Shown here: one piece after another, positions 1 through 25,300 of the stretch
Position numbering within the stretch: position 1 is the first letter of the stretch
Layout of the letters: each line of letters starts with the position of its first letter
From: Margaritifera margaritifera
Lineage: Eukaryota > Mollusca > Bivalvia > Unionida > Margaritiferidae
Length of the DNA stretch: 64,000 bases
Direction of reading: 5' to 3'
NCBI GenBank assembly: GCA_029931535.1
Contig: JAQPZY010001610.1
Location: 4,377,501-4,441,500, forward strand
Program-made: the position numbers and the translations under genes
Notes under the pieces: model-generated
Databases searched by the model: none
The model's input: the letters and a program-made list of their open reading frames with translations, nothing else
Told to the model about the DNA's origin: nothing

Positions 1-423
1 TGCACACATCTAGTTCCTTACTAAAATCAAATCTATTGTGATCATGATATAAACTGCACTTTCATATAACAACACTGATAAAGAGTTTGATTCAAAATAT
101 GAACTATTTCAGTATTTATTATAATGAGAAAAAGTCTTACAAATAGTTCCTCACTGGTTAAGAAAAAGTAAATTTAACTCACCCCTCCTCCTCTCCAAGG
201 GTCAAGGTCACCATTAGAAAACACAATATTTGATACTGTTTTCAAATCTGAAACAGAGACATGGATACAACCATGTTACAATTTTAGCAATCTTTCCAAA
301 TGCACCCAATTTTCTGGAGACTTTTTATCAAGGAACAATTATACAGGAAACAAACATGATAAGGAATGGAGCAGCTGACCATGCACTTTTGAGATCTACT
401 GATCCCTTTTTCAAGGTGGATTA
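1..423. other. Unassigned intronic or flanking DNA
   Basis: AT-rich sequence. No exon, repeat or element was recognised. Confidence 0.4.
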
Positions 424-912
424 CACAAACAAAGAACAATTACAAACACAAACACAAACAATTACAAACACAAACAAAGAACAATTACAAACATAATTAC
501 AAACACAAACAATGAGCAATTACAAACACAAACAAAGAACAATTACAAACATAATTACAAACACAAACAATGAGGAATTACAAACACAAACAAAGAACAA
601 CTACAAACACAAACAATTACAAACACAAACAAAGAACAATTACAAAAACAAACAAAGAACAATTACAAACACAAAAAACAATTACAAACACAAACACAGA
701 ACAATTACAAACACAAACAATTAGAAACACAAACAAAGAACAATTATAAACACAAACAAAGAACAATTACAAACACAAACAAAGAACAATTACAAAAACA
801 AAAAATAATTACAAACACAAACAAAGGACATTTACAAACACAAACAAAGGACAATTACAAACACAAACAAAGAACAATTACAAACACAAAAAAGAACAAT
901 TATTAAAACAAA
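424..912. repeat. Purine-rich tandem array of ACAAACACAAACAAAGAACA type
   Basis: Built from the words ACAATTACAAACACAAACAA and AAAGAACAATTAC in variable order (period about 23 bp with many shorter units). The plus strand is almost free of G and T, hence weak open frames of N/T/K/Q residues that are not genes. Confidence 0.85.
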
Positions 913-2020
913 ACCATAAACAAAATATGTACTTACACAATCTTTTGTTATGGCCAAATAAAAATCACAGAATCTAAAATTAATCTAAAGTTAATATATC
1001 TGGAAAAAGGGCAGAAAATTGTATGCTTTGAACTATTACATTATGGCAAAATCAGATATTCCAATTTGACAGGAATATATATATATATATATGAAATACA
1101 TAATTGCATTTATTACACGTAAAACTGTTACTAAACATCCCACAAATCAAATAAGACAAACAAAAATTATACATTTTTAAAAGTACACAAAAATGGATCA
1201 AACATGGAATGCTATGTTAAAACATGTACCACAATAGAAGAGTATTGGTTCAAACCCTGCTACCTCCAATTCCTTTTATTCCAAAAATGAAAAGGAATAG
1301 GCATACATTTTTTTTCTTTTCAGGAAAGTTGGAGGGGGGTGGGAAGGGTGTTGGGGAATATTTGTCCCCAACAGTATTGAGCTTCTAGGAATTCTTACTT
1401 AGGAACAAATATGAAGAAGCCATGTGCCATTTACTATAAGCGCTTTCAAACCCTCCATCTTCTTTACATGCTGCATACCAATCAAGGTGACACCAAAGTT
1501 TAGAAATAAACATTGTAAAAATAAAGAGAACATCTTAACATAAGCAATGGTAAAAATTTGATAAAAATCCGTCAAACAGTATTAAAGTTATGAGCATTTA
1601 AAGATTTTTTCAGGGGAGATAATTCATGGTAACCATGTTATCTTTTCCTGATTTTCATGACATCACAGCTGAGGAATATCAATTTCAAATATTTATTAAA
1701 AAAATAAAGTACTTAAGACCGTTATGAAATACATCAAAATTAACATTCATCTTCTGATAAATATATTTGTAAAAGAAAAGGAGGTCACTTTAAATTAACT
1801 TTTTACTATGTTTTTCAGTAGCTTATATCTATATTATCTCACCTTTCTACCAATACTTAGATTTTGCTTGTCACTCTGTGTCTATATTTCTAAAACTTCC
1901 TATTTGGCAGTGCCCTATCCAACATTAAATCTGGCCCCAAGCTTTATAAAAACTTGTAAGGCCTTGTAGGTTTATTATCAGAGAAATATTGAACATGATT
2001 TGATTCTTGTTGATATTTAC
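913..2020. other. Intronic DNA, no recognised feature
   Basis: Holds a short TA run at 1076-1092 and a G-rich patch near 1330-1350. It was checked on the minus strand for the missing DPP7 exon with the LDPW or HHLDLR motifs; none was seen. Confidence 0.4.
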
Positions 2021-2177
2021 CTCGACCTAGGAATTGGATGGCAGACCAGTCATCTCGTGGTGTTACATTCCACTGCTGCTGACAATATTTGTTCCTATCC
2101 TGGTCTGTAAACGGCATCTCTGGGAACATGTCAGTCACATTGGTGCTGCCTCCCACTAGTGGAATCTCAGTACAAGC
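2021..2177 (-). CDS. DPP7: DPP7-like exon G (ACTE...NVTDMFPEMPFTD...LGR)
   Basis: 157 nt, 52 codons plus 1 nt: ACTEIPLVGGSTNVTDMF, PEMPFTDQDRNKYCQQQW, NVTPRDDWSAIQFLGR, then a split Gly. It aligns with DPP7 [32 protein letters not shown]..WGVxPRPDW...FWGG. There are two NVT sequons. The acceptor is TTTCCACAG and the donor GTAAAT. It leaves in phase 1; the next exon should carry the SNIIFSNGxLDPW catalytic Asp motif but is not between 1 and 2020. Confidence 0.94.
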
Positions 2178-2194
2178 CTGTGGAAAAGAGCAGA

Positions 2195-3105
2195 CTTAGC
2201 AGCATTCCTCGCATAATGTCAATTATATGCTGTACATTTTGTATGTCCCTGCAATATCTATGAAGGAAGCATAGTAGTATTACTAATGTCCATCCATCTC
2301 ATGTCATGTCAGTTGTAGTAGCATTTCTCACATGATGTCAGTGATTTGCTGTACATTCTGTATGACCCTGCAATATATACATGGAGCATATAGTATTATC
2401 AATGTCCATCCATTTTGTCCCATCCCATTATGTCCATTGTAGTAATGTTCCTCACATGATGTAAATTATATACTGCACATTTTATATGCCCCTGCAACAT
2501 CTATAGAGGAGGCATATATTATTATCAATGTCTGTCCATACTATTACGTCATGTCCCATCACATTATGTCATGTCCATCATAGCACATGATGTAAATGAT
2601 ATATTGCACATTTTATATGCCCCTGTGATATCTATGAAAGGAGCATATAGTATTAACAATGTCTGTCCATACTATTACGTCATGTCCCATCACATTATGT
2701 CATGTCCATCATAGCACATGATGTAAATGATATATTGCACATTTTATATGCCCCTGTGATATCTATGAAAGGAGCATATAGTATTAACAACGTCTGTCCA
2801 TACTATTACGTCATGTCCCATCACATTATGTCATGTCCATCATAGCACATGATGTAAATGATATATTGCACATTTTATATGCCCCTGTGATATCTATGAA
2901 AGGAGCATATAGTATTAACAACATCTGTCCATACTGTCATGTCATGTCCATTGTAGCAGCATTCCTTACATGATGTCAACGATATGCTGTACATTTTGTA
3001 TGACCCTGCAATATCTAAAGAGGTGGCAATAGTATTATCAATGTCCATCCATCCTGGCATGTTATGGCCCATCACATCATGTCATGTCCATCATAGCACA
3101 TTGTT
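2195..3105. repeat. 131 bp tandem repeat, about 7 copies
   Basis: CTATTACGTCATGTCCCATC recurs at 2541, 2672 and 2803 (131 bp steps), with diverged copies on both sides. Units share GCACATGATGTAAATGATAT and ATGCCCCTGTGATATCTATG. The array starts about 18 bases upstream of exon G in the intron. Confidence 0.9.
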
Positions 3106-3140
3106 GATTTTGTTTCAGATCAGTAACTTTTCATGAACTT

Positions 3141-3462
3141 CATGGATTAAGACCTATTTTGGAATGAGGCTTTATGGATTAAGACCTATTTTGGAATGAG
3201 GTTTCATGGATTAAGACCCATTTTGGAATGAGACTTTATGGATTAAGACCTATTTTGGAATGAGGCTTTATGGATTAAGACCTATTTTGGAATGAGGCTT
3301 TATGGATTAAGACCTATTTTGGAATGAGGCTTTATGGATTAAGACCTATTTTGGAATGAGGCTTTATGGATTAAGACCTATTCTGGAATGAGGCTTTATG
3401 GATTAAGACCTATTTTGGAATGAGGCTTTATGGATTAAGACCTATTTTGGAAAGAGGCTTTA
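3141..3462. repeat. 32 bp tandem repeat, about 10 copies
   Basis: Unit starts TGGATTAAGACCTATTTTGG and ends AATGAGGCTTTA. Copies are nearly identical, which suggests recent amplification. Confidence 0.95.
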
Positions 3463-3858
3463 CATTTAGAAGACCTTGGTAAAGTTTGATTGTCACTGTT
3501 TTCAAAATTTATTAAAGTTATGACTCCTATTTGACTTTAAACTTTCCCTTCATTTATATCATACTGGTGTCATGTCATCTAGACACATTTCTACTGGGTT
3601 TGCACAATGTGGAAGAGTGCATGAATTTTGGTGGTTACCTTGAAAAGTGCTTGAATTTGAGGTCAGCTCCAAAAAGTACTGGAAAAGTATGTAAAAGCTC
3701 CCAGTGGTCTTTGAAAAGTGCTTGAATTTTGAAATGCATTTCATTGGAAACAATAATTTAGTACACAAATATCCAAAGAAAAAGATTTGTTAAAAACGTC
3801 AGAAACTCAATGTTCCTGGAATTGTACTGTCATGCTGGGTCATGTACATATTCAGCAA

Positions 3859-4160
3859 GGTTTGGTTGCTTATGTACTCATTAGTAATCAGACTGGTTTG
3901 GTTGCATATGTACTCATTAGTAAGCAGACTGGTTTGGTTGCTTATGTACTCATTAGTAATCAGATTGGTTTGGTTCCTAATGGACTCATTAGTAATCAGA
4001 CTGGTTTTGTTCCTTATGTACTCGTTAGTAATCAGACTGGTTTGGTTGCTTATGTACTCGTTAGTAATCAGACTGGTTTGGTTGCTTATGTACTAATTAG
4101 TAATCAGACTGGTTTGGTTGCTTATGGACTCATTAGTAATCAGACTCGTTTGGTTGCATA
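3859..4160. repeat. 36 bp tandem repeat, first block (8.4 copies)
   Basis: Unit GGTTTGGTTGCTTATGTACT then CATTAGTAATCAGACT. The unit is a multiple of three, so open frames run through it (124 codons), with no sign of a real gene. The block stops abruptly at the 650 bp element and resumes at 4811. Confidence 0.95.
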
Positions 4161-4810
4161 GGTGGCACTCTCCAGTTTCGTACTTTGCATAGGGTTAGAT
4201 TTTTAAAGAAAAAGAATTACCCAAGTTTTCCTCACTGGTTGTCCTAGCTATTTAAAAAAGACCTTGTATATCTTAGGTATTGTTAAAAGAACTTTGAATT
4301 CCCTTTATTTTGGTGTATGATTGATGGGTGCAATTTGGGTTATAGAGTATACAGCTTGGTCTTACTTAAGATGTGCACCTCTCAAAAAACTGCTAGCTCG
4401 GCTTGGTAATTTTCGCTTCCTAGACTTCAAAGGTAAATTTTTTAAAAAAAGGGCCGATATTTTATTTACTTTTTATGTATTTTGTAATTCATTCATTGTA
4501 CTTTCAGAGGCTGGTATTGCCTACTCTGGCAAAATTTGTTTCCCTCTTTTAATAACTGCTGAAAATAGTGTACTTTTGACTAATTCAGGCGATTTTTCAA
4601 GTACTTTGGAGTGGCCATTTCTGTCTGCTGTGTGCTTAGATCATGTCCAATTTCCACAAGTACAATATGTAAAGAAATTCCAGCCGCAGTACATGAAAGT
4701 AGCATAGAGATATGCGAACATTCTCTCCATTGTGCATGTTGCAAATGCAAACAACTTCATCTTACACCTGTCACTCTCTCAGAAGCACGTATTATCTGTA
4801 GAGTGCCCCC
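4161..4810. mobile_element. 650 bp non-autonomous DNA transposon inside a minisatellite
   Basis: The left end reads GGTGGCACTCTCCAG and the right end, reverse-complemented, GGGGGCACTCTACAG: 13 of 15 positions match as terminal inverted repeats. It is flanked by ATA on both sides (..TTGC-ATA and ATA-TGTACTC), and the two flanks rejoin into an intact 36 bp unit. That gives a 3 bp target-site duplication and a reconstructable empty site. There is no transposase; the 128-codon open frame at 4321-4707 matches nothing I know. The superfamily is not settled. Confidence 0.72.
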
Positions 4811-5168
4811 ATATGTACTCAATAGTAATCCGACTGGTTTGATTGCTTATGTTCTCATTAGTAATCAGACTGGTTTGGTTGCTTATGTACTTTTTAGTAA
4901 TCAGACTGGTTTGGTTGCTTATGGACTCATTAGTAATCAGACTGGTTTGGTTGCATATGTACTCATTAGTAATCAGACTGGTTTGATTGCTTATGTACTC
5001 ATTAGTAATCAGACTGGTTTGATTGCTTATATACTCATTAGTAATCAGATTGGTTTGGTTGCATATGTATTCAATTAGTAATCAGACTGGTTTGGTTGCT
5101 TATGGACTCATAAGTAATCAGTCTGGTTTGGTTGCTTATTGTACTCATTAGTAATCAGACTGGTTTGG
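4811..5168. repeat. 36 bp tandem repeat, second block (about 10 copies)
   Basis: Same unit and orientation as 3859-4160; the two blocks were one array before the 650 bp element inserted. Some copies have GATTGC for GGTTGC. Confidence 0.95.
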
Positions 5169-6596
5169 GATTGTAACCACCTCATGATGTTTAAATGAAT
5201 GGATGCTGTTTTGATTATACCATTATGACTGATATTAAAGTTGTGTTAAGTACTCTACAATGGGAAGTGAACAAGATTTCTGTAAGCACTATATATAAGC
5301 AAGGGTGCCATGAGATGAACAAAGAGTGATGTGTTGTGTTTGTTTACAGGAAACGGATGCTGAGTTGATGGTGAAAATACTCTTAAGTCCCCTCGTAAGA
5401 GTGAAAAGCATAAAAAAAGTTTAAATATTAACAATAGCAATTAATTTAGAATACATTTAACTTGAATATGAAAAATTCCAGAAGGCGTCATAAATTCTGG
5501 CAAATATGACTACTAAATGCTAAGGTGTTGTAGACGGGATGACTGTATAACTACCCCCCCCCCCTCCCACCTCATGCCCCCTAAGCTATATATAGTGTCT
5601 TCACCTAGACCTAGTTTAATTAATTACCAAAAAATATTTCAGAGATGTTGTCTAAGAATTAAAAAATCTTAAATTTGAAATTCTGTGGACTCTACATGCC
5701 ATATAATCAACATTCATCTAAGTTAAGATGCAGTTAGTGATAGTGCTTGAAAATTGCATTTTTATACTTGAAAAGTGCTTGAATTTCCTGATGCAACATC
5801 TGTAAAAGCCATCCTGACCCCTCCATCACAATTCTGAACTTGATTCCAAATCTTACTAGAAAATTTTCTGACCAATCAGAAGGCTGCTTTTTGTACATTT
5901 AAATAAGATTTCCAAACCTGGAATAATCTGTATTACTCAAAATATTCAGTCAAGTTTTATGGTGGGCAGGCCTGATGAAACATCTGTTATTGACCTAAAT
6001 TTGATCGTGTGAAAGTTTGTTTTCCAGAGCTTATTCTGTGATCCTTCTAACACCAGTTGTGAGTAATTACAAAATGAGACGAGTCTGCTATCCCTTAATT
6101 TGGTGTTTATTAGTGAGTGAGAGCAAAATACTTGTATGATCCTGACAAAAACAAACAGAAAACAAAACTTACAGTAGAAAGTATGGATTTTTAATGAACA
6201 AAGTTTGCAACATTCTTGACAGAACAGCCTTTCATAAAAAAGAAACACTGGTCAGCAAAATTAGAACTGAAATAACATGTTTTTGGGTAGTACAAATTAT
6301 CTACCATATACATCACTGTAATACCTGTTATATCTCCAGAATTTGCTCATTATTTTCTGCTTATCACCAGCACTCCTATGTGGTAGACAAGAGCTCCAGA
6401 AATTCAAAGAAAGAATCACAGAGTGTATAATTGGAAACAATGTTAAATGTTTGAAATAATTTATTGTTAAGATTAGAAATAAAAAGTAATGGGAATAGCC
6501 CTAATATTCCAGAGGCATTTAAAACTCAAATCTGTCCTTTGAATGTGTTTGGTGATTTTAAAAAAAAATGAGATGAGAAATTTGCAACGTCTATAC
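5169..6596. other. Intronic DNA, no recognised feature
   Basis: Unique AT-rich sequence with a C-run at 5553-5562. Minus-strand open frames near 5255 and 5946 show no family motif. Confidence 0.4.
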
Positions 6597-6718
6597 CTGG
6601 TAATCCCAGGCAAGGCTATCAGGTCCAACACCACACCCTGTCTGGTCTGCACAAGAAACAAACTCAGTGAAGATGTCAAAACACTGCAGACTGCCTCCTG
6701 TCCCATTGTAAAATAAAC
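6597..6718 (-). CDS. DPP7: DPP7-like exon F (LFYNGTGGSLQCFDIF...AWDYQ)
   Basis: 122 nt: 2 nt finishing Gly, then 40 codons LFYNGTGGSLQC, FDIFTEFVSCADQTGCGVG, PDSLAWDYQ. It matches DPP7 LVYNxSG...CYDIY...SCADPTGCGTGPD.RAWDYQ. NGT is a potential glycosylation site. The donor is GTATAG. The acceptor drawn (CATTCCAG, AG at 6719-6720) is the last of thirteen near-identical acceptors spaced exactly 63 bp apart up to 7475-7476. Using a more distal one would extend this exon in frame by multiples of 21 codons. The coordinates given are the minimal exon, which corresponds to the ordinary family length. Confidence 0.92.
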
Positions 6719-7501
6719 CTGGAATGATACATATTATAGTCAAACACAGCAGACTGCCTCCTGTCCCATTGTAAAATAAATCTGGAATGATACACATTAG
6801 TGTCAAACACTGCAGACTGCTTCCTGTCCCATTGTAAAATAAACCTGGAATGATACATATTATAGTCAAACACAGCAGACTGCTTCCTGTCCCATTGTAA
6901 AATAAATCTGGAATGATACACATTAGTGTCAAACACTGCAGACTGCTTCCTGTCCCATTGTAAAATAAACCTGGAATGATACACATTAGTGTCAAACACT
7001 GCAGACTGCTTCCTGTCCCATTGTAAAATAAACCTGGAATGATACACATTAGTGTCAAACACTGCAGACTGCTTCCTGTCCCATTGTAAAATAAACCTGG
7101 AATGATACACATTATAGTCAAACACTGCATACTGCTTCCTGTCCCATTGTAAAATAAACCTGGAATGATACACATTATAGTCAAACACTGCAGACTGCTT
7201 CCTGTCCCATTGTAAAATAAACCTGGAATGATACACATTATAGTCAAACACTGCAGACTGCTTCCTGTCCCATTGTAAAATAAACCTGGAATCATACACA
7301 TTATAGTCAAACACTGCAGACTGCTTCCTGTCCCATTGTAAAATAAACCTGGAATGATACACATTATAGTCAAACACTGCAGACTGCTTCCTGTCCCATT
7401 GTAAAATAAATCTGGAATGATACACATTATAGTCAAACACAGCAGACTGCTTCCTGTCCCATTGTAAAATAAATCTGGAACGATACACATTATAGTCAAA
7501 C
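6719..7501 (-). repeat. 63 bp exon-derived array: 12 extra copies of the exon F 3' splice site and exon start
   Basis: On the minus strand each unit is GTTTATTTTACAATGGGACA plus GGAAGCAGTCTGCAGTGTTT plus GACTATAATGTGTATCATTC plus CAG: the first ~43 nt of exon F with ~20 nt of upstream intron including the acceptor. Acceptor AGs sit at 6719 + 63k for k = 0 to 12 with no indel. The frame stays open from 7613 through exon F. Copies differ from the exon by one missing T (TGTTTGAC against TGTTTTGAC) and at a few sites (GLFYNGTG or DLFYNGTG). Confidence 0.95.
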
Positions 7502-7730
7502 CTGCCTTAAAGGTCACCTGTATTAAGCAATTATTGGTTTGAGTTTTCAAGATCTTGTAAACCAAAATATTGAAGAAGTGAACCTCTACTGTATACATGT
7601 CATAAACAACCAACTGTCTTTAAAAGTCTGGCACTTTTCTCACTTCCCTTAGGTGACTGCTCAAGATAAGTTTGACTATATTTGGCTCCCATTTCACTAA
7701 AATCACAAACAAAAAGTCACTGCATATTTA

Positions 7731-7929
7731 CTGTATATGTGCTTATAAGTCGGGTCCAACTGCAGCTGTCACATAATGCATTGGCAGATTAGGGTCTATG
7801 TTGTTTGTTGTACTGATTACTCCTAACAAACTGAATAGACCCAGATCTGCCATCACATAATTCTCTGACATATCTGGGTCTATACAGTTTGCAGTTGGGC
7901 CCAATTTGTAAGCAAGTATATATGGTATG
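7731..7929. mobile_element. Foldback element, copy 1
   Basis: Ends in inverted TATATGTGCTTATAAGT and AAGCAAGTATATATGGTA. Inside are two hairpin arms of the AGACCCAGATCTGCCATCAC and GGTCTATGTTGTTTG type. It has the same layout as the copies at 12709, 32140, 37735 and 62684. Confidence 0.8.
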
Positions 7930-8099
7930 CCTACCCAGACCCTTCTATTTACACATAGGCTAATAGAAACTGGTTCACATATTGTTTGACACCACAGATC
8001 AAGAGATTATCACAGTATTCAACATAATATCTTCACATGCTTTAAATGAGTAAATGCACAGTCCTCTTTGTGGTACAAAAAAAATTCACAAAAATATCC

Positions 8100-8496
8100 C
8101 CTGAGTGCACAATCCTCAATCTTGGCATACCTGTTGGGAGGAAATCAGCTCATACAACCTCCCTTACTGAGTGCACAATCCTCAATCTTGGCATACCTGT
8201 TGGGAGGAAATCAGCTCCTAAAACCTCCACTACTGAGTGCACAATTGATATCTTTAACTGGCATGCCTATTAGGAGGAAATCAGCTCCTACAACCTCCCT
8301 TACTGAGTGCACAATTCTCTATCTTGGTATACCTCTTTGGAGAAAATCAGCTCCTACATCCTCTCTTATTGTGTGCATAATTCTCTATCTTGGTATACCT
8401 CTTAGGAGGAAATCAGCTCCTACAATCTCCCTTACTGTGTGCATAATTCTCTATCTTGGTATACCTCTTGGGAGGAAATCAGGTCCTACAACCTAG
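8100..8496. repeat. 66 bp tandem repeat, about 6 copies
   Basis: CTGAGTGCACAATCCTCAAT recurs at 8101 and 8167. Units also carry GGGAGGAAATCAGCTCCTAC. Later copies diverge (TGTGTGCATAATTCT). Confidence 0.92.
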
Positions 8497-9276
8497 CAGT
8501 GCTACCCAGAACATCTTGATTTTCTTGGAACTTACCACTAAGCATGAATTATGTCTTGTTACCACTTAACTTCATGGGGTACCTTAGCCTTAAACAAGAA
8601 TTTTACATATGCTTTATAGTGGGAAAGACAATGCATCTTTAAAATGGAGAGCTCCCAACAAAGACAAAGGGGGCTAATTCTTCTAGTATGTACATACATG
8701 GGATGGGGACAACTGTTTACGATACTATTGATGTGCACTTAATTTGAGCTTCAACCTCATGGAGTTTACTGAAATAATAATTATTTAAGCACACAGAGTG
8801 GATATTATGTTCAATAAGTCAGTTTCATTCTCACTGTCAACTGTCATTGCTTTCGTGCTTTTGAGCCCTTGAGAAAGGTATTTACTCTTGACTGCTCTAG
8901 AGCACCCGGCTATAAAATGGTACCAGCATGTGTTTGAGGGATGACTGTGATGGATTAGTATCCCATCCAGTGGAAGTAGTGTAACCTCAGTTCCTGCATG
9001 TAAGAACTAGTAATATGTTTACAGAAAATGACTGCCTTGCCACCCCCTCTTTAGCAATCTACTGTATAGAGGGTTTTTTCGCAGATGTAAAAATTTTTTT
9101 GATTTTGTTCAAAAATGGGGGATTTTTATTTGGCTAGTTTTATTTTCAAAATTATGGATCTAGACAGGTTATAATATTTAAGGAGGTAAATTCTGTTGGG
9201 ATTATATTTTGCAATCACATTATGAGACCATAAATCTGCTAAAATTTCTCCATTGCTAAAAATTTGTGCTATACCT
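8497..9276. other. Intronic DNA, no recognised feature
   Basis: No open frame or repeat of note. It ends at the border of the 16 bp array. Confidence 0.4.
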
Positions 9277-11720
9277 TATATGTACTATATGGTATATGTA
9301 CTATACAGTATATGTATGATATGGTACAAGTAGTATATGGTATATGTACTTATGGTATGTACTATATGGTATATGTACTTATGGTGTATGTACTTTTGGT
9401 ATATATACTATATGGTATAAGTAGTATATGGTATATATACTATATGGTATAAGTAGTATATGGTATATGTACTATATGGTATGTACTATATGGTATATGT
9501 ACTTATGGTATATGTACTTATGGTATATATACTATATGGTATAAGTAGTATATGGTATATATACTATATGGTATAAGTAGTATATGGTATATGTACTATA
9601 TGGTATGTACTATATGGTATATGTACTTATGGTATATGTACTTATGGTATATGTACTTATGGTATATATACTATATGGTATAAGTAGTATATGGTATATG
9701 TACTATATGGTATATGTACTATAAGGTATATGTACTATATGGTATGGGTACTATATGATATATGTACTATATGGTATATGTACTATAAGGTATATGTACT
9801 ATATGGTATATGTACTATATGGTATAAGTAGTATATGGTATATGTACTATATGGTATAAGTAGTATATGGTATATGTACTATATGGTATGTGTACTATAT
9901 GGTATATGTACTATATGGTATATGTACTATATGGTATAAGTACTACATGTATATGTACTATATGGTATATGTACTATATGGTATATGTACTATATGGTAT
10001 GTGTACTATATGGTATAAGTAGTATATGGTATATGTACTATATGGTATATGTACTATAAGGTATATGTACTATATGGTATGTGTACTATATGGTATGTGT
10101 ACTATATGGTATGTGTACTATATGGTATAAGTACTATATGGTATGTGTACTATATGGTATGTGTACTATATGGTATGTGTACTATGTGGTATATGTACTA
10201 TATGGTATATGTACTATATGGTATATGTACTATATGGTGTATGTACTATATGGTGTATGTACTATATGGTATGTACTATATGGTATGTGTACTATATGGT
10301 ATATGTACTATATGGTATATGTACTATATGGTATGTGTACTATATGGTATGTGTACAATATGTTATATGTACTATATGGTATGTGTACTATATGGTATAT
10401 GTACTATATGGTGTATGTACTATATGGTGTATGTACTATATGGTGTATGTACTATATGGTGTATGTACTATATGGTATGTACTATGTGGTATATGTACTA
10501 TATGGTATATGTACTATATGGTATGTGTACTATATGGTATGTGTACTATATGGTATGTGTACTATATGGTATATGTACTATATGGTATATGTACTATATG
10601 GTGTATGTACTATATGGTGTATGTACTATATGGTATGTACTATGTGGTATATGTACTATATGGTATATGTACTATATGGTATATGTACTATATGGTATGT
10701 GTACTATATGGTATGTGTACAATATGTTATATGTACTATATGGTATGTGTACTATATGGTATATGTACTATATGGTATGTGTACTATATGGTATGAGTAC
10801 TATATGGTATGTGTACTATATGGTATATGTACTATATGGTATGTGGTATGTGTACTATATGGTATATGTACTATATGGTACATACTATATGGTATGTGTA
10901 CTATATGGTATATGTACTATATGGTGTATGTACTATATGGTATGTACTATATGGTATATGTACTATACAGTATATGTACTATATGGTACATGTACTATAT
11001 GGTGTATGTACTATATGGTGTATGTACTATATGGTATGTACTATTTGGTATATGTACTATATGGTATATGTACTATATGGTATATGTACTATATGGTATA
11101 TGTACTATATGGTATATGTACTATATGGTATGTACTATATGGTATATGTACTATACAGTATATGTACTTTATGGTATGTACTATATGGTATATGTACTAT
11201 ATGGTATATGTACTACATGGTATATGTATTTTATGGTATGTACTATATGGTATATGTACTTTATGGTATGTACTATATGTTATATGTACTATATATTATA
11301 TATACTATATGGTATGTGTACTATATGGTATAAGTACTATATGGTATATATATTATATGATATATGTACTATATGGTATATGTACTATATGGTATGTGTA
11401 CTATATGGTATGTGTACTATATGGTATAAGTACTATATGGTATATGTACTATATGGTATAAGTACTATATGGTATAAGTACTATATGGTATATGTACTAT
11501 ATGGTATGTGTACTATATGGTATATGTACTATATGGTATATGTACTATATGGTATGTGTACTATATGGTATGTGTACTATATGGTATAAGTACTATATGG
11601 TATATGTACTATATGGTATGTGTACTATATGGTATGTGTACTATATGGTATATGTACTATATGGTATATATATTATATGGTATGTGTACTATATGGTATA
11701 TGTACTATATGGTATATGTA
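9277..11720. repeat. 16 bp AT-rich array, about 150 copies (2.4 kb)
   Basis: Unit GGTATATGTACTATAT with variants (GGTATGTGTACTATAT, GGTATAAGTACTATAT, GGTGTATGTACTATAT, shortened GGTATGTACTATAT). Purine-pyrimidine alternation and the TGTAC core make local palindromes. Open frames up to 502 codons of M/Y/V/C/I repeats are by-products. Remnants resume at 11848-11926 after a unique 127 bp interruption. Confidence 0.97.
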
Positions 11721-12344
11721 AAAAAAGGGAGGGCGGAGGGCTTCTTTATCATATGTGGCTAATTTTTCAATGGGTCTTTAAATTCATGGTTCAGGGCAAC
11801 AACGAAATCCACGAAAATTGGTACCCCACAAAATTTTTGATATTACACTATATGGTATATGTTCTATATGATATATGTACTATGTAGTATATGTACTATA
11901 TGATACATGTATTATATGGTGTATGAAGTCTGTGAGCTAAAATGCAAAATCTAATCATGGTGTGATGGACAGATGGATGGAAGGACAAATGGACAAGGGG
12001 GACAGTATATAAACATTCCACATTAATTGCAGGTGGGGGGGAGGGTATATAAAAAACTAGGATAATCTCTGACCCTCTGAGCCATTAGTAGCTTTGGAAA
12101 GATCTTCATCTGGTATAAAATGGGTTATTTGAATGGCAAATTTCTGAATTTCTCAATTGTCCAAACCTATAATTTCTTTTCTGTACCATTATCAATGATC
12201 CAGATCATACACTTTACACTTTTTCAGTTCCACAAACAAATGAATAATAAGATTTTTACTTTGCAAACCTTGGGCAGAATAAAGAAAATTTTAGAGGATC
12301 CCACCACCACATGAATAACCATTAACCTCTAAACCGTTACTGAC
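11721..12344. other. Interruption, array remnant and unique intron
   Basis: 11721-11847 is unique and holds AACGAAATCCACGAAAATTG, possibly an inserted element. 11848-11926 is decayed 16 bp array. 11927-12344 is unique, with a GATGGACAGATGGATGG-type patch. Confidence 0.5.
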
Positions 12345-12405
12345 CTGCTGCCTCAGCTAAACCTTCAACTGGATTTGATGATGTCATTATAGAGTTGCAG
12401 GCTGT
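12345..12405 (-). CDS. DPP7: DPP7-like exon E (short, TACNSIM...EAAG)
   Basis: 61 nt, 20 codons plus 1 nt: TACNSIMTSSNPVEGLAEAA, then a split Gly. It corresponds to the DPP7 stretch VxVGCDRLL...LRALAG that precedes LVYN. The acceptor is ACATTTCCAG and the donor GTCAGT. It was found from phase and order rather than length alone: it enters in phase 0 after PVN and leaves in phase 1, which fits either the exon F acceptor at 6718 or any of its 12 upstream duplicates. Confidence 0.88.
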
Positions 12406-12708
12406 CTGGAAATGTAAATGAACAAAAACTGAAATTATACTGTTAATAAATTTCATTAATTTGATGTGAAATGAGCACAATTGTAAGTTTCTATTGAAGA
12501 CAAGTGAAAAATCACAAATTTGCTTCAGTGAACCAACAAACGGTATTGTTAAACAACTTGGAAATACATTCAGATACTTCTGACATACATGGAACATCAA
12601 GACAAGATATTGCATTCCTTTTGTGTAAAAGGAAATTGAAAATGGGTTTATGCCAAATACAATGAGCAAAGAAAATGGTAGTTATTTGATGTATGCCATA
12701 TAAAGTTA

Positions 12709-12930
12709 TACCATATATACTCGCTTAAAAGTCTGATCTAATTCTAAACAACATAAATCTGCTCTGCCATCACATGATGCACCAGCAGATCAGGGTGTAT
12801 GTTGTTTATTTTACTGATTATTTCTTTAAAAAACTGCATAGACTCAGATCTTCCATTGCATTATGCAAAGTCAGATCTGGGTCTATGCAGTTTGCAATTG
12901 GATCTAACTTATACACAAGTATATATGGTA
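12709..12930. mobile_element. Foldback element, copy 2 (222 bp, best ends)
   Basis: Perfect inverted ends TACCATATATAC and GTATATATGGTA, which can be read as CCATATATAC repeats flanked by a TA target duplication. Internal arms include GCATAGACTCAGATCTTCCA and GATCTGGGTCTATGCAGTTT. There is no coding capacity. Confidence 0.85.
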
Positions 12931-13096
12931 TTTCCTTTTTGTAAACATGTAGAACTTTTTCTATGACTAAGTATTGATACTATATATCTTTCTATTAAAC
13001 ATTTTAATTACAATTTTATGATGATTGCATCTTTAGAAAGAAATTAGTTGAAAAGGAAAATGTGAATTTAGACTAGATAATGTGTACGTGAAATCA

Positions 13097-13386
13097 GATC
13101 TCTTCATACCAATTAGCAATATTATTATAGTCAAGATCTCTTTATACCAATTAGCGATATCCTTATAGTCAAGATCTCTTTATACCAATTAGCGATATCC
13201 TTATAGTCAAGATCTCTTTATACCAATTAGCAATATTATAGTCAAGATCTCTTTATACCAATTAGCGATATCATTATTATTTAAGATCTCTTTATACCAA
13301 TTAGTGATATCATTATAGTCAAGATATCTTTATACCAATTAGTGATATCATTATAGTCAAGGTCTCTTTATACCAATTAGTGATAT
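13097..13386. repeat. 38 bp tandem repeat, about 7.5 copies
   Basis: Unit contains GATCTCTTTATACCAATTAG and CGATATCCTTATAGTCAA. Confidence 0.93.
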
Positions 13387-13490
13387 TATGAGCCTAAAGT
13401 TGTATTGCAATATCATCACATTTTTATGATATATTGTGATACTATCATGAAGTTTATACTGTTTCAGATCAATACAATCTGGCACTGACG

Positions 13491-14295
13491 TATCTTAAGT
13501 TTGATGAAAGTGGGGACAGTGTATCTTTAGTTTGCTGTTTTTACAAGTCTAATGTCAACAAAGTTTGATGAAAGTGGGACAATGTATCTTGAGTTTGCTG
13601 TTTTTACAAGTCTAATGTCAACAAAGTTTGACGAAAGTGGGGACAGTGTATCTTTAGTTTGCTGTTTTTACATGTCTAATGTCAACAAAGTTTGACGAAA
13701 GTGGGGACAGTGTATCTTTAGTTTGCTGTTTTTACATGTCTAATATCAACAAAGTTTGATGAAAGTGGGGACAGTGAATCCTGAGTTTGATGTTTTTACA
13801 TGTCTAATATCAACAAAGTTTGACGAAAGTGGGGACAGTGTATCTTTAGTTTGTTGTTTTAACATGTCTAATATCAACAAAGTTTGATGAAAGTGGGGAC
13901 AGTGTATTTTAGTTTGCTGTTTTTACATGTCTAATGTCAACAAAGTTTGATGAAAGTGGGACAGTGTATCTTGAGTTTGTTGTTTTTACACGTCTAATGT
14001 CAACAAAGTTTGACGAAAGTGGGGACAGTGTATCTTTAGTTTGCTGTTTTTACATGTCTAATGTCAACAAAGTTTGACGAAAGTGGGGACAGTGTATCTT
14101 TAGTTTGCTGTTTTTACATGTCTAATATCAACAAAGTTTGATGAAAGTGGCAACAGTGTATCTTGAGTTTGTTGTTTTTACACGTCTAATGTCAACAAAG
14201 TTTGACGAAAGTGGGGACAGTGTATCTTTAGTTTGTTGTTTTTTTACATCTCTAATGTCAACAAAGTTTGATGAAAGTGGGGACAGTGTATGTTA
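13491..14295. repeat. 64 bp tandem repeat, about 12.5 copies
   Basis: Unit contains GTCAACAAAGTTTGACGAAA, GTGGGGACAGTGTATCTTTA and GTTTGCTGTTTTTACATGTC. Copies alternate between GATGAAAG and GACGAAAG variants. Confidence 0.94.
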
Positions 14296-14484
14296 GTCTC
14301 AGATACAAGTTTTAATGTAGAAGAAAAAGCAAAGATTTCAAGAAAGTACGGTCAAAATTTTAATTTAGAACTTTTGTGGGTACACATATAATCTGACAAT
14401 TTGATCATGGTAGCTCCCATAACTTGCATCATTTCACAAAGTTACTATTATTGTTTGAAAGTTTAACAAGTTGCTATTGTGTAC

Positions 14485-14486
<2 letters not shown>

Positions 14487-14541
<55 letters not shown>
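14487..14541. repeat. (AAT)n microsatellite
   Basis: About 18 uninterrupted ATA/AAT triplets. Confidence 0.97.
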
Positions 14542-14542
<1 letters not shown>

Positions 14543-14729
14543 TGGCAGAGTGCAAATGCCAAAGTTACATCTTGCAGAAAATTATATTGTTTTGTTGTTT
14601 GTTTTTTTCCCCACTGATCATTGCCTCTAGACTGTTCCTATTTACATCTGACTAACATGTATCAATTTGAAATGCAAAGATATTGAGAACACAGCTGATT
14701 ATGGTAAACATGCCACTCAGTACTAGTGC

Positions 14730-16640
14730 TCTGCATTGCTGCATGAGCTGTGGTAGCTCTGTATTGCTGTATGAGCTGTGGTAGCTTTGTATTACTGCAT
14801 GAACTGTGGTAGCTCTGTATTGCTGTATGAGCTGTGGTAGCTCTGTATTGCTGTATGAGCTGTGGTAGCTCTGTATTGCTACATGAGCTGTGTTAGCTCT
14901 GTATTGCTGTATGAGCTGTGGTAGCTCAGTATTGCTGTATGAGCTGTGGTAGCTCTGTATTGCTGCATGAGCTGTGGTAGCTCTGTATTACTGCATGAGC
15001 TGTGGTAGCTCTGTATTACTGCATGAACTGTGGTTGCTCTGTATCGCTGCATGAACTGTGGTAGCTCTGTATTGCTGCATGAGCTGTGGTAGCTCTGTAT
15101 TGCTGCATGAGCTGTGATAGCTGTGGTAGCTCTGTATTGCTGCATGAGATGTGGTAGCTCTGTATTTCTGCATGAATTGTGGTAGCTCTGTATTGCTGCA
15201 TGAGTTGTGGTAGCTCTGTATTGCTGCATGAACTGTGGTAGCCCTGTATTACTGCATGAACTGTGGTAGCTTTGTATTGCTGCATGAACTGTGGTAGCTC
15301 TGTATCATCGCATGAGCTGTGGTAGCTCTGTATCATTGCATGAACTGTGGTAGCTCTGTATCATTGCATGAACTGTGGTAGCTCTGTATCATTGCATGAA
15401 CTGTGGTAGCTCTGTATTACTGCATGAACTGTGGTAGCTCTGTATTACTGCATGAACTGTGGTAGCTCTGTATTACTGCATGAACTGTGGTAGCTCTGTA
15501 TTGCTGCATGAACTGTGGTAGCTCTGTATTGCTGCATGAGCTGTGGTAGCTCTGTATTGCTGCATGAACTGTGGTAGCTCTGTATTGCTGCATGAGTTGT
15601 GGTAGCTCTGTATTGCTGCATGAACTGTGGTAGCCCTGTATTACTGCATGAACTGTGGTAGCTTTGTATTGCTGCATGAACTGTGGTAGCTCTGTATCAT
15701 CGCATGAGCTGTGGTAGCTCTGTATCATTGCATGAACTGTGGTAGCTCTGTATCATTGCATGAACTGTGGTAGCTCTGTATCATTGCATGAACTGTGGTA
15801 GCTCTGTATTACTGCATGAACTGTGGTAGCTCTGTATTACTGCATGAACTGTGGTAGCTCTGTATTACTGCATGAACTGTGGTAGCTCTGTATTGCTGCA
15901 TGAACTGTGGTAGCTCTGTATTGCTGCATGAGCTGTGGTAGCTCTGTATTGCTGCATGAACTGTGGTAGCTCTGTATTGCTGCATGAGCTGTGGTAGCTC
16001 TGTATTGCTGCATGAGCTGTGGTAGCTCTGTATTGCTGCATGAACTGTGGTAGCTCTGTATTGCTGCATGAACTGTGGTAGCTCTGTATTGCTGCATGAG
16101 ATGTGGTAGCTCTGTATTGCTGCATGAACTGTGATAGCTTTGTATTGCTGCATGAACTGTGGTAGCTCTGTATTGCTGCATGAGCTGTGGTAGCTCTGTA
16201 TTGCTGCATGAACTGTGGTAGCCCTGTATTGCTGCATGAACTGTGGTAGCTCTGTATTGCTGCATGAACTGTGGTAGCTTTGTATTACTGCATGAACTGT
16301 GGTAGCTCTGTATTACTGTATGAACTGTGGTAGCTCTGTATTACTGTATGAACTGTGGTAGCTCTGTATTACTGTATGAACTGTGGTAGCTCTGTATTAC
16401 TGTATGAACTGTGGTAGCTCTGTATTACTGTATGAACTGTGGTAGCTTTGTATTGCTGCATGAGATGTGGTAGCTCTGTATTATTGTATGAACTGTGGTA
16501 GCTCTGTATTGCTGCATGAGATGTGGTAGCTCTGTATTGCTGCATGAGTTGTGGTAGCTCTGTATTGCTGCATGAGATGTGGTAGCTCTGTATTACTGCA
16601 TGAGTTGTGGTAGCTCTGTATTGCTGCATGAGTTGTGGTA
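14730..16640. repeat. 28 bp tandem array, about 68 copies, joined to a SINE
   Basis: Unit TGAACTGTGGTAGCTCTGTA then TTGCTGCA. The last unit runs into the SINE at 16633, sharing TTGTGGTAGCTC with the SINE head. A block around 15200-15360 recurs 392 bp later (14 units) with the same variant order, so segments of many units were copied as blocks. Minus-strand open frames are repeat artefacts. Confidence 0.96.
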
Positions 16641-16821
16641 GCTCAGTTGATACAGCATTATACTCTTTATCCAAGGGTTGAGGGTTTGATACCCACCCAG
16701 GCCAGCCCAGGTCAACTGCTTTAGTCTGTCCTTGGGAAAAGCACTTAGCTCCCATTTCCCTGGCATGGTGTAGGCAATAATGTTAAAAGTGCCAGCAAAA
16801 CCAAAAAAAAAACACAAAAAA
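16633..16821 (+). mobile_element. tRNA-derived SINE, copy 1
   Basis: The tRNA-like head has an A box TAGCTCAGTTGATACAGC (16639-16656) and a B box GGTTTGATACC (16683-16693). A body with GGGAAAAGCACTTAGCTCCC follows, then an A-rich tail at 16796-16821. The body matches the copy at 18843-19034 on the other strand (GGCACTTAACTCCCATTTCC), which supports a real SINE family. Confidence 0.85.
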
Positions 16822-16997
16822 GTCTATTGTAGTAACTGGAAATTGATTTACATGGACAAGGAATCTCAAATCTATGCAGTATCACCATTCTATATATTTG
16901 CAGATATCATCATACTGCTAAATGCAACGATGATAATGCCAATAATTATATATAATGCCAAATCCAATAACATAATGCCAATAACTACTCTACTTAC

Positions 16998-17164
16998 ATT
17001 TACCGGGTAAGCAGGGAGTTTTGCCATGAAATTTGTTGGATAAGGGTAGTCAAACATTGCGAGGCTGGTAAAAGAGTTTCTGATCCATTCCAGTAGGTGG
17101 TAATAGTCGCTAAAGTTCTGCAGGCTGCGGCAAACTTTGAATGTTGATGTCAGCTTATCCAGAC
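16998..17164 (-). CDS. DPP7: DPP7-like exon D (cap domain, DYPYPTNF)
   Basis: 167 nt: 2 nt completing Gly, then 55 codons LDKLTSTFKVCRSLQNFSDY, YHLLEWIRNSFTSLAM, FDYPYPTNFMAKLPAYPVN. The family hallmarks are C..L near the start and A.FDYPYPTNF..LPAYPV at the end. NFS is a potential glycosylation site. The acceptor is TTTTTTTAG. The donor chosen is GTAAGT after AAT; an alternative GTAAAT six bases earlier would drop VN and break the phase into exon E. The SINE and the 28 bp array start about 180 bases further into the intron. Confidence 0.93.
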
Positions 17165-18010
17165 CTAAAAAAACAAAAACATTCTGATTGAAATGACAAC
17201 TTGAGATCTATAGTAAACCTGTCTAAGTGGATACCTCTGTATAACCTCTAACCTGTTCATTCACAACAACATTAACAATATTTATACAATAATAAATCCA
17301 GGAAGGCCAGAATAATAAAACTGGTAGAAAGTGGAGGATGGGATTATCATTGGACATGATTTTCCTACATTAACTTTCCTACAATTTTAACAAAGAGGTG
17401 GTGGTGGTGGTGGTCTTATCATTAAGCAGGTGCCTATCATTTTAGAAATAAAGTATAAATTGTTTTAAATTACTTATGTATATCATCAGTATATGAAGAC
17501 CATAATTGTCAATTGTCTGTAAAGGACAAAATACTGTGGTCCCTCAACAGGTGTCCTTTATAAATAGATTTCACTGTAAGTAATTAAACAATGTTTAAGT
17601 CTAAAAAAAAAAAAAAAATTCCCTGAATCGCAATGTCTTGTCTTGAAACAGTTATTCGGTATCATTTAAAAAAAAAATTAAAGTTAATGTCGATAAACAT
17701 CGCCACAAGAGACTAAAATTTCAGTAGTTGTGTTTCATATTTAGTTTAAACAGTTCTGCTTTGCATACAGTGAATTCATTTTTCTGTGGGGTCTATTTTC
17801 AAGGTTTGTAAAGAATGACATTTTCTTAGTACTTAAATTCATGCATTTGGTGAAGGGTTCTATTGTTTCCACATAATGATCAATGTGAGGAGTTCGATTG
17901 TTTCCACACAGTTTGTAATAACCACAAAATCAATAAACACTGGTTCCCCATAAAAAATAGTGACTATTTTTGCTGTTATTATAGATAGAAGCATATGAAC
18001 ATTTGCTAGA
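17165..18010. other. Intronic DNA, no recognised feature
   Basis: Contains a short (GGT)n run near 17398 and an A-run at 17604. No exon signal. Confidence 0.4.
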
Positions 18011-18280
18011 ACTTTATACATGTAGGGGAGTATCATCCAACATGGGCCTATCATGGGAAACTTTATACATGTAGGGGAGGGGTTTATCATCCAACAAGGG
18101 CCTATCATGGGAAACTTTATACATGTAGGGGAGGAGCTTATCACCCAACAAGGACCTATCATGGGAAACTTTGTACATGTAGGGGATGGGTTTATCATCC
18201 AACAAGGGCCTATCATGGGAAACTTTATACATGTAGGGGAGGAACTTATCATCCAACAAGGGCCTATCATGGGAAACTTT
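18011..18280. repeat. 54 bp tandem repeat, 5 copies
   Basis: Unit contains TTTATACATGTAGGGGAGGG and GGGCCTATCATGGGAAAC. The period is a multiple of three, so both strands stay open; this is not evidence of coding. Confidence 0.94.
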
Positions 18281-18411
18281 CCCTGTACTACATCAACTTG
18301 TGTCTTGAAAACCTAAATCTTATGGTGTTGAGAGAAACCTTTTCTTCTCTGCAATTTAGCAAGTATAATCACATATTTGTTATCTAATTAAGTAATAAAC
18401 ATTCACATATT

Positions 18412-18800
18412 TTGGATAACTTATTCAGTCTCACCCTAAGTATCATACCCTATATGCAGAAGTATTTTGACGTGAACTGCTTGAAGAAACTGTACGAGGA
18501 CGTGCCACCCGAGAAAACCTTGGAATTTTTCAGAGAATGTGCTTTATACAAGAAATTTTCATCGCATTATAAAGATTTCAAATATGTTAATATATATACA
18601 TTTTTCAGAATTTTAAAATCTTGACATTCTATATTGTATCTTGTGCTTAGTTATACATTTATTTGGAAGGATCTTCCTAATTTTTTGCAATTCATTTTTA
18701 CATTTTGGGAACATAACCTTTTGCTGGCACTAAACAGCCACTTTTGTGCTGAGGTGCCATAAATCCCTACTACATACATACATACATACATACATACCTA
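18412..18800 (+). mobile_element. LINE 3' end fragment with TACA tail
   Basis: An open frame ends YFDVNCLKKLYEDVPPEKTL then EFFRECALYKKF, resembling the extreme C-terminus of CR1-like LINE ORF2 proteins. A short 3' region with GCTGAGGTGCCATAAATCCC follows, ending in a (TACA)n tail at 18770-18798, the tail type expected of such LINEs. Only the 3' end is present (5' truncated). The family assignment is from memory of the motif style. Confidence 0.6.
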
Positions 18801-18842
18801 CCTAAGTATCACACTGAATCTAAACTTTTTGTTGGACACCAT

Positions 18843-19034
18843 TAGTTGGTTGGTTGGTTGGTTTCTAATGGCACTTTAACATATTATTGTCTATATCATG
18901 CCATGGAAATGGGAGTTAAGTGCCTTTGCCATGGACATGTAAAGGTAACCAACCCAGCTGGTCTGAGCAGGTATCGAACCCATTACCATAGGATTATGTC
19001 TCTACCAAATGAGCTACTGCGGTTCATGTTGTGC
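18843..19034 (-). mobile_element. tRNA-derived SINE, copy 2
   Basis: On the minus strand: A box TAGCTCATTTGGTAGA (from 19016), B box GGTTCGATACC (18970-18980), core GGCACTTAACTCCCATTTCC and a tail of AACC repeats (18845-18862). The B box is better preserved than in copy 1. Confidence 0.85.
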
Positions 19035-19346
19035 ACGTTTACTTATAAAGGGATCGGTACTGACGCTATGTTACAACTTTATCCTTGAAATAAGGATCGT
19101 TTCCAACTATAGATATTAACATATAGAAATTGTTCTTTGAATTGCTTTTTAAAAACTGCAGTGTGCTAATGGATGGATGGACAGATGATGGATGATGGAC
19201 AACAGGTCATCCAATACACTCTTCTGGTCTATGATCAGTACAGCTAATAAAACAATACAAATCAGATTCATTAAAAAGCCAACAGTAACAAAAGCTGAAA
19301 AAGACAAATGATAATACATACACATACAACATGCAGATATATACAC

Positions 19347-19347
19347 G

Positions 19348-19410
<63 letters not shown>
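19347..19410. repeat. Compound (CA)n(TA)n microsatellite
   Basis: About 11 CA then about 21 TA dinucleotides. Confidence 0.97.
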
Positions 19411-19413
<3 letters not shown>

Positions 19414-19904
19414 TAAGACATCATAGAATATGTTTACATATAAAGATATTAATATGTAGATAAGAAAAATGACCATTTTTTTTTAAAAGGCATGCAAAAG
19501 GGCCATATTAATTAGATATGAGGAAATGAGGATGCCAAAAAATTTAAATTTAAAATAATGAAATAAAATAACCAGTAATGAAGCTGGATTTAAAACAAAA
19601 GAAAGTAAGTAAAAGTAGAGAAACACTAAATTGATTGACACTGAGTGATAAGGTAAACAACAAATAGCTTGATGGATGATGGACAGCACATGATGCACAA
19701 TGGATGGTACAGGCCAGACACAGAACCGTACCATGAGTTCACTTGGTCTTAGGGCCAGGTGAGCTAAAAAGCATGTATTCAATCAACCTTGTGTGTTGCA
19801 TTTTACTAACAAATATGTCCATTAGATCAAGAATTATTGCAGAGAAAAGACACATCTTTTAACTTACTGTTAATCCAATGGAATTCAAATGATATATAGG
19901 ATTA
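19411..19904. other. Intronic DNA, no recognised feature
   Basis: AT-rich. The GATGGATGATGGACAGCACA patch near 19672 resembles one at 19170. Confidence 0.4.
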
Positions 19905-20350
19905 TGCTATCCTGCCTGTATGGATGTGTGTGGGGGGTATTATGTTATCCTGCCTGTCTGAATGTGTGTGTGTGTGTGTGGTGGGGGGTATTATGTTATC
20001 CTGCCTGTCTGAATGAGTGTGTGTGTAGAAAGAAGAGATAGGATTATGTTATCCTGCCTGTCTGGGTGTGTGTAAGGTATTATGTTATCTTGCCTGTCTG
20101 AATGTGTGTGTGTGTACAAAGAAAAGGTGGGATTATGTTATCCTGCCTGTCTTGATGTATGTGTGTGGGATTATGTTATCCTGCTTGTCTGTATGTGTAT
20201 GTGTGTGTGGGATTATGTCATCCTGCCTGTCTGGATGTGTGTGTGTGGGATTATGTTATCTTGTCTGTCTGGATGAGTGTGTGTGTGATTATGTTATTCT
20301 GCCTGTCTGTGTGTGTTTTTATGTGTGTGTGTGTGTGTGTGTGTGTGTGA
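19905..20350. repeat. Irregular GT-rich tandem repeat
   Basis: Units begin GATTATGTTATCCTGCCTGT followed by a variable-length (GT)n stretch, so unit length varies (about 38-70 bp), about 10 copies. Confidence 0.9.
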
Positions 20351-20615
20351 TATCCTGTCTGGATGGATGCATATGTATGTGCATGAGTAATACTGTGCAA
20401 CTCCTATACTATTTATGATCAAGATTTCATACTTTGGGATATGAATGGGGGTGGTCTGAAGATGTGTACAACAACTTTAGAATCTGGCTCCATCCCTGGT
20501 TTGGTTTGTGGAGCTTGGAGGTCACCTATGTATATATGTATAATGGGGGAGAGGAGAAGTGATAACTCAGAAAAGCATGGAGATGCTGCTGCTTTGATGC
20601 AGACTTCAGATTTTG

Positions 20616-22470
20616 CAACAAGAAAATGGGAAGGTCCATGTGTGCTTATTTTTATTACATGAAAATGGGAAGGTCCATGTGTGCTTATTTTTATTACATG
20701 AAAATGGGAAGGTCCATGTGTGCTTATTTTTATTACATGAAAATGGGAAGGTTAATGTGTGCTTATTTTTATTACAAGAAAATGGGACGGTCCATGTGTG
20801 CCTATTTTTATTACAAGAAAATGGGAAGGTCCATGTGTGCTTATTTTTATTACAAGAAAATGGGAAGGTCCATGTGTGCTTATTTTTATTACATGAAAAT
20901 GGGAAGGTCCATGTGTGCTTATTTTTATTACATGAAAATGGGAAGGTCCATGTGTGCTTATTTTTATTACAAGAAAATGGGAAGATTCATGTGTGCTTAT
21001 TTTTATTACATGAAAATGGGAAGGTTCATGTGTGCTTATTTTTATTACATGCAAATGGGAAGGTCCATGTGTGCTTATTTTTATTACATGAAAATGGGAA
21101 GGTCCATGTGTGCTTATTTTTATTACAAGAAAATGGGAAGGTTCATGTGTGCTTATTTTTATTACATGAAAATGGGAAGGTCCATGTGTGCTTATTTTTA
21201 TTACATGAAAATGGGAAGGCCCATGTGTGCTTATTTTTATTACATGAAAATGGGAAGGTCCATGTGTGCTTATTTTTATTACATGAAAATGGGAAGGTCC
21301 ATGTGTGCTTATTTTTATTACATGAAAATGGGAAGGTCCATGTATGCTTATTTTTATTACAAGAAAATGGAAGGTTCATGTGTGCTTATTTTTATTACAT
21401 GAAAATGGGAAGGTCCATGTGTGCTTATTTTTATTACAAGAAAATGGGAAGATTCATGTGTGCTTATTTTTATTACATGAAAATGGGAAGGCCCATGTGT
21501 GCTTATTTTTATTACATGAAAATGGGAAGGTCCATGTGTACTTATTTTTATTACATGAAAATGGGAAGGTCCATGTGATGGTATTTTTGACACATGAACA
21601 TGAGAAGGTTCATGTCAGGTTATTTTTGACACAAGAAAATGGGAAGGTTCATTTGAGGTTATTTTTGACACAAGAAAATGGGAAGGTTCATGTGTAATTA
21701 TTTTTATTACCAGAAAATGGGAAGGTTCATGTGAGGTTAATTTTGATACAAGAAAATGGGAAGGTTCAAGTGATTGTATTTTTGACACAAGAAAATGGGA
21801 AGGTTCATGTGAGGTTAATTTTGATGCAAGAAAATGGAAAGGTTCAAGTGAGGTCATTTTTGACTCAAGAAAATGGGAAGGTTCATGTGTACTTATTTTT
21901 ATTACAAGAAAATGGGAAGGTTCATGTCAGGTTATTTTTGACATAACAAAATGGGAAGGTTCATGTCAGGTTATTTTTGCCAGAAAAAATGGGAAGGTTC
22001 ATGTCAGGTTATTTTTGACACATGAACATGGGAAGGTTCATGTCGGGTTATTTTGGACACAAGAAAATGGGAAGGTTCATTTGAGGTTATTTTTGACACA
22101 AGAAAATGGAAAGGTTCATGTGTACTTATTTTTATTACAAGAAAATAGGAAGGTTTATGTGAGGTTATTTTTGACACAAGAAAATGGGAAGGTTCATGTG
22201 TACTTATTTTTATTACAAGAAAATGGGAAGGTTCATGTGAGGTTATTTTTGACACAACAAAATGGTAAGGTTCATGTCAGGTTATATTTGACAAGAAAAT
22301 GGGAAGGTTCATGTCAGGTTATTTTGGACACAACAAAATGGTAAGGTTCATGTCAGGTTATTTTTGACACAACAAAATGGTAAGGTTCATGTCAGGTTAT
22401 ATTTGACAAGAAAATGGGAAGGTTCATGTCAGGTTATTTTGGACACAAGAAAATGGGAAGGTTCATGTGC
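20616..22470. repeat. 39 bp tandem array, about 47 copies in two variant blocks
   Basis: Unit GAAAATGGGAAGGTCCATGT plus about 19 bp. Block 1 (20616-21575) has GTGCTTATTTTTATTACAT; block 2 (21576-22470) mostly has AGGTTATTTTTGACACAA with block 1 units scattered in it. The multiple-of-three period gives open frames up to 321 codons on both strands; these are artefacts. Confidence 0.96.
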
Positions 22471-22591
22471 ATTTTTTATTTATACTTATTTTCACAAATA
22501 TACTCATTTTCATGATTTGATAATACATCAAGGTCAGATGATTTGAGTAATATATGGAATCTAGCTACTACATACAACAGTTATAACTGAC

Positions 22592-25118: not shown

Positions 25119-25300
<182 letters not shown>

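Follow-up and report, generated by a model that had tools for sequence, protein, structure and literature searches.

The closest described counterparts of the locus reported here are the "mirage" minisatellites of amphioxus, which are documented for Adh3 and for the globins BflGb6 and BflGb9 (PMC3087553) and for PGBD5, with troponin C also mentioned (PMC3902484). As described, a mirage is a minisatellite-like tandem duplication across an intron-exon boundary, in which many repeats carry splice signals and the authentic exon is kept; the repeats evolve in concert within a cluster, with the edge units left out, and show length instability between haplotypes (PMC3087553). Mirages are said not to disturb regular splicing (PMC3087553, PMC3902484), and those of the globins are proposed as seeds of new introns (PMC3087553). 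Repeats of a related kind occur in human duplicated genes, where internal tandem repeats lie at exon-intron boundaries and minisatellite expansion can change splicing (PMC2812944).

Here, we describe an array of 63-bp units at the acceptor edge of exon F3 of a DPP7/DPP2-like peptidase gene, within a window of 64,000 bases (the whole stretch of DNA that was analysed). Judged by its sequence in one assembly, this array belongs to the known class of mirage minisatellites: its unit spans the boundary (36-40 nt exonic, 23-27 nt intronic), TTCCAG is present in 13 of 13 copies, and exon F3 and the 320-aa frame of the gene are intact and open. As in amphioxus BflGb6, where the repeats comprise the 3' end of an intron and the 5' part of an exon (PMC3087553), it is the acceptor side that is repeated at F3. 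The period of 63 bp falls within the 10 to 72 bp given for the units of amphioxus Adh3, and in the amphioxus mirages, too, both acceptor and donor edges can be hit, like exons F3 and D here. What differs from the amphioxus mirages is the genome, which is bivalve-like, the strict 63-bp spacing of the 12 extra copies, and the fact that every copy is open in the frame of the gene. A minisatellite with multiple splice donor sites was reportedly described by Turri et al. in 1995 in IFI6 (6-16); it resembles the present array in being an exon-edge minisatellite that offers several splice sites, and differs in lying on the donor side, in its short unit and in belonging to a human gene, whereas the array here is on the acceptor side. 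The human boundary repeats concern paralogs with transcript support (PMC2812944), whereas the array here is described at the DNA level. The literature search, which most subscription journals lay outside of, met with mirages only in amphioxus, and a mollusc case may be in print. It also turned up a gastropod gene-structure study in which the word 'minisatellite' occurs once (PMC3862624) and a study on tandem duplication and novel introns in Drosophila (PMC2891723). The array suggests that mirage-type splice-junction minisatellites extend beyond lancelets, as a by-product of minisatellite-rich DNA. We consider it probable that it is a young, neutral mirage that is normally removed with the intron, leaving a protein with one copy of the segment.

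The host gene and the 63-bp array

The in-window part of the DPP7/DPP2-like gene (183..50684, minus strand) comprises eight exons (50684-50521, 47854-47719, 22679-22592, 17164-16998, 12405-12345, 6718-6597, 2177-2021 and 247-183, all on the minus strand), which all have GT-AG borders and join into a single open frame of 320 residues. Residues 1-320 of the product match Pfam Peptidase_S28 (PF05577; 178 bits, E 3.8e-52), and the top three protein matches are the DPP2-like proteins of Mercenaria, Mactra and Ruditapes, with 67-68% identity over the full in-window length (68% for Mercenaria), so that a bivalve related to these clams is the probable source of the window. Profile match and clam identity bear out the DPP7-like gene that had been proposed in an earlier, sequence-only reading of this DNA. 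The C-terminal part of the gene lies beyond the window end, and a human query did not find the N-terminal part in the 64,000-base window. The S28 triad presumably consists of the catalytic Ser in GGSYGG plus Asp and His; GGSYGG and LDPW are present in the in-window product, and the His-bearing part lies outside the window. Exon F3 (6597..6718, minus strand) is an authentic coding exon of 122 nt with the donor CAG/gtatag, and reads GLFYNGTGGSLQCFDIF..., which aligns to GLVYNASGSEHCYDIY of human DPP2 (solved structures 3jyh and 4ebb). The upstream exon F2 (12345..12405, minus strand; 61 nt) ends in GCAG/gtcagt, the junction codon GGT being split after its first G. The exon start at 6718 and the upstream exon end at 12345, both placed by the sequence-only reading, are confirmed in the 320-aa frame.

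The 63-bp minisatellite (6719..7501, minus strand) consists of 12 full extra units (7474-6719) and a matching intron part that runs to the first acceptor (7501-7475). Within it, 13 TTCCAG candidate 3' splice sites (6719..7480, minus strand) end in a G at 7475 - 63k (k = 0-12), i.e., at 7475, 7412, 7349, 7286, 7223, 7160, 7097, 7034, 6971, 6908, 6845, 6782 and 6719. All 12 spacings are 63, and TRF returned 63 bp x 13.1 copies with 96% matches and 0% indels, exactly the spacing of 13 acceptors that had been claimed and a regularity that is not due to chance. Columns 1-40 of the unit consensus correspond to the exon and columns 37-63 to the intron that precedes the first acceptor, with one mismatch each, and the two matches overlap by GTTT. 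As regards the composition proposed earlier, the mixture of exon and intron around the acceptor stands, and the lengths of ~43 and ~20 nt do not, the consensus matches giving 36-40 and 23-27 nt. None of the 12 extra units has a stop in the DPP7 frame, and FYNGT and two Cys are encoded by each of them (LTIMCIIPGLFYNGTG is an example of the peptide encoded by the 63-bp repeat), as expected from the stop-free units with an NGT sequon and two Cys that had been described.

In this one assembly, the 12 complete extra units represent 8 sequence types, with one type present four times, one twice, and the rest, edge units among them, differing. The variable columns of the unit are 1, 24, 30, 34, 44, 45, 50 and 56, and the ordered variants include A or G at +1 and, separately, TATAATG, CACTAATG and TATAATA. 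Tandem arrays are often mis-sized in assemblies, and the true array might have another copy number. We nevertheless regard such an assembly artefact as very improbable: the ordered variants, with 8 types in the 12 units, show that the array did not arise by copying a single read block, and the window contains 54 other arrays.

Origin of the unit and other exon-edge repeats

The GTTT overlap marks a likely duplication point and is suggestive of an origin by microhomology. For comparison, 50,000 random breakpoint pairs were drawn outside arrays, and microhomology of at least 4 bp was found at 2.8% of them. In the reading that we favour, and judging by the breakpoint, the array would have begun with the tandem duplication, across GTTT, of 63 bp around the 3' splice site of one coding exon, after which slippage or unequal exchange would have produced expansion and partial homogenisation to 12 extra copies. 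The same process would be the one that fills the locus with arrays.

A second exon-edge array, by now decayed, consists of copies of the 3' end of exon D and lies downstream in its intron (47439..47654, minus strand; best BLAST pieces E 2e-6 and 7e-6), and itself contains a 41-bp array (47514-47644). It offers three donor-like sequences: AAG/GTAACT after 47650, which would extend exon D by 69 nt in an open and intact frame, AAG/GTAACT after 47485 (a 234-nt extension) and GAG/GTAATT after 47443 (276 nt). The latter two extensions contain stops, i.e., stops come with two of the three extra donors. By these matches, exon-edge duplication has occurred twice in the DPP7-like gene, at the acceptor edge of F3 and at the donor edge of D. 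Near a further exon, a 131-bp array (2306..3101, minus strand) has a unit that includes intron sequence from ~20-60 nt before the acceptor of exon G, on the intron side only.

Acceptor choice and the encoded repeat

By eye, TTGAC was found ~20 nt before the AG, with no AG between, in 13 of 13 copies. Because of this arrangement, each unit could in principle serve as a complete acceptor module with an AG and a possible branch point of its own; these are the sequence elements from which the sequence-only reading had derived a self-contained acceptor per unit, and its further claim that any acceptor keeps the DPP7 frame agrees with the exon junctions and the open units. When scored with a rough, approximate weight matrix, the array acceptors range from 1.41 to 3.34, and the acceptors of the other seven exons from 1.28 to 9.25. 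An A instead of G at +1 (acceptors 7475, 7412, 6908 and 6782) costs ~1.9 bits on this approximate scale. Relative to the last acceptor (2.03), seven of the 12 upstream ones score higher (3.34 or 2.37), one ties and four score lower with the same approximate matrix, and since the majority thus exceed it, acceptor strength alone does not favour 6719. The F3 donor is, with an approximate score of 1.31, the weakest of the eight.

The position of the acceptors sets 6719 apart, as the first acceptor would yield an exon of 878 nt and only 6719 is followed by the whole 122-nt exon. Reed and Maniatis reportedly found in 1986 that the choice between duplicated acceptors is governed by exon sequence and by the proximity of splice sites. 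In the favoured reading of a neutral mirage, the copies would behave as intron, and the spliceosome would normally join the 12345 donor to acceptor 6719, the last one, which may be preferred as the only one with the full 122-nt exon after it, resulting in a single-copy protein. Recursive splicing through CAG/GTTTAT, which is present at 9 of the 13 acceptors, was also considered and appears unlikely, as this sequence scores -2.69 as a donor with the approximate matrix, on which the eight real donors range from 1.31 to 6.96. The 13 near-identical acceptors constitute a clean natural test of spliceosome choice, and the array is likewise a natural test of whether such repeats seed new introns or coding repeats.

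Splicing could instead be leaky, with the use of multiple acceptors generating a ladder of DPP7 isoforms that carry 0-12 inserts of 21 residues without a strong function, and the open frame letting these isoforms escape nonsense-mediated decay. The AG and TTGAC at all 13 acceptors, whose scores span 1.41 to 3.34, are consistent with this, as are the units, all of them open and in frame. In the protein model of Mercenaria (mean pLDDT 88), helix 302-314 contains the junction and is followed by the invariant C323. When placed in the register of the repeat, the extra units would fall between these two, in the loop after the helix, where relatives vary by a few residues. The protein might therefore tolerate extra copies in this loop of variable length, and a structural impossibility of the insert, given its modelled position in the loop after helix 302-314, is not something that we can claim. 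Nor does the most hydrophobic 19-residue window of the repeat (1.33) exceed the highest value elsewhere in the enzyme (1.60).

Other properties of the encoded segment argue against leaky splicing. The consensus repeat has no charged residues, adds two Cys per copy, and is hydrophobic on average, with a mean Kyte-Doolittle value of 0.98 versus 0.00 for the rest of the enzyme. Among the best 120 of 3666 matching relatives, none has an insertion at the A/G-L junction, in agreement with the single copy that had been claimed for family members, and insertions close by reach at most 6 residues, the longest being located in the loop that follows NGT. No database protein matched the peptide of the repeat region at E <= 1 among the 7988 candidates that share most words with it and were scored, within length limits. 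Furthermore, the amphioxus mirages are reported as splicing normally (PMC3087553, PMC3902484). We accordingly consider leaky splicing unlikely. It is quite unlikely, too, that, through the in-phase open mirage, splicing noise or differences in copy number between alleles give rise to graded full-length DPP7 variants that escape decay and carry 0-12 glycosylatable segments of 21 residues, which would make the array a live intermediate of an intron/exon edge becoming a coding repeat.

Reading frame and the tandem arrays of the window

Tandem arrays make up 30,600 of the 64,000 bases of the window (105 TRF rows, reduced to 62 non-redundant arrays, of which 55 have a period of at least 10 bp). They include a 2.4-kb array of 16-bp units at 9277-11720 and a 3.1-kb array of 37-bp units at 54839-57912. 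The neighbouring 38-bp array and the unit before F3 have TTGACTATAAT in common, as part of an exact match of 13 nt (13233-13245; E 0.52) that is possibly due to chance. Only one of the eight exons overlaps an array, compared with a mean of 4.6 for random placement (P(<=1) = 0.014), which points to exons being kept free of arrays in the window.

This collection of arrays provides a reference for the frame of the 63-bp array. Among the 55 arrays with a period of at least 10 bp, the period is a multiple of three in 21, and 34 have 0% indels. For arrays with at least 8 copies, 0% indels were found in 14 of 22 when the 63-bp array is counted, and in 13 of the 21 others. The absence of indels, which the sequence-only reading had offered as a sign of selection on the frame, is thus shared by most comparable arrays and loses this meaning; its alternatives, very recent expansion or homogenisation, fit the array. 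A fully open frame among the six was present in 10 of 19 arrays with a period divisible by 3 and of at least 18 bp, the 63-bp array included (9 of the 18 others), a lax control in that the 63-bp array needed one given frame and some control arrays are short. Upon swapping the intron part of the unit for random minus-strand sequence, the unit was still open in 60% of the trials. Because 21 of 55 periods are divisible by three and a fraction of 0.60 of such random units are open, a unit that is both in phase and open would arise by coincidence in roughly one case out of four (21/55 x 0.60).

In a selected accordion, copy number and acceptor choice would be under selection because they extend the enzyme in a regulated or polymorphic way; in its favour, the period (63 = 3 x 21), the lack of stops and the sequon in each unit can be cited. 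Against it, seven of the eight varying codons of the array are non-synonymous, and the exon-derived part does not change detectably more slowly than the intron-derived part (4 of 41 versus 4 of 22 columns variable; Fisher p 0.43, or 0.70 and 0.25 when the boundary is moved to 38 and to 43, respectively), eight varying columns giving little power to detect selection. Together with the indel-free arrays that are usual in the window, the periods divisible by three in 21 of 55 arrays, and the missing counterpart of such an insertion in the best 120 of 3666 relatives, these data led us to reject selection on the frame and to consider the accordion extremely improbable. In the neutral mirage that we prefer, the open frame across the copies would be a coincidence of the period of 63 and a stop-free intron part, and would at most soften the cost of mis-splicing.

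Rfam and tRNA scans of the window gave 0 matches. Three MITE-like stretches with nested inverted repeats (7734-7920, 12708-12931 and 62687-62991) look related by eye, with arms near AAACTGCATAGACCCAGAT, and one of them lies ~230 bp upstream of the 63-bp array. Decayed fragments resembling a non-LTR retroelement were observed at 37850-40262 on the minus strand, where one ORF contains DVPQGSVLG and has a weak, below-cutoff match to RVT_1 (E 0.082).
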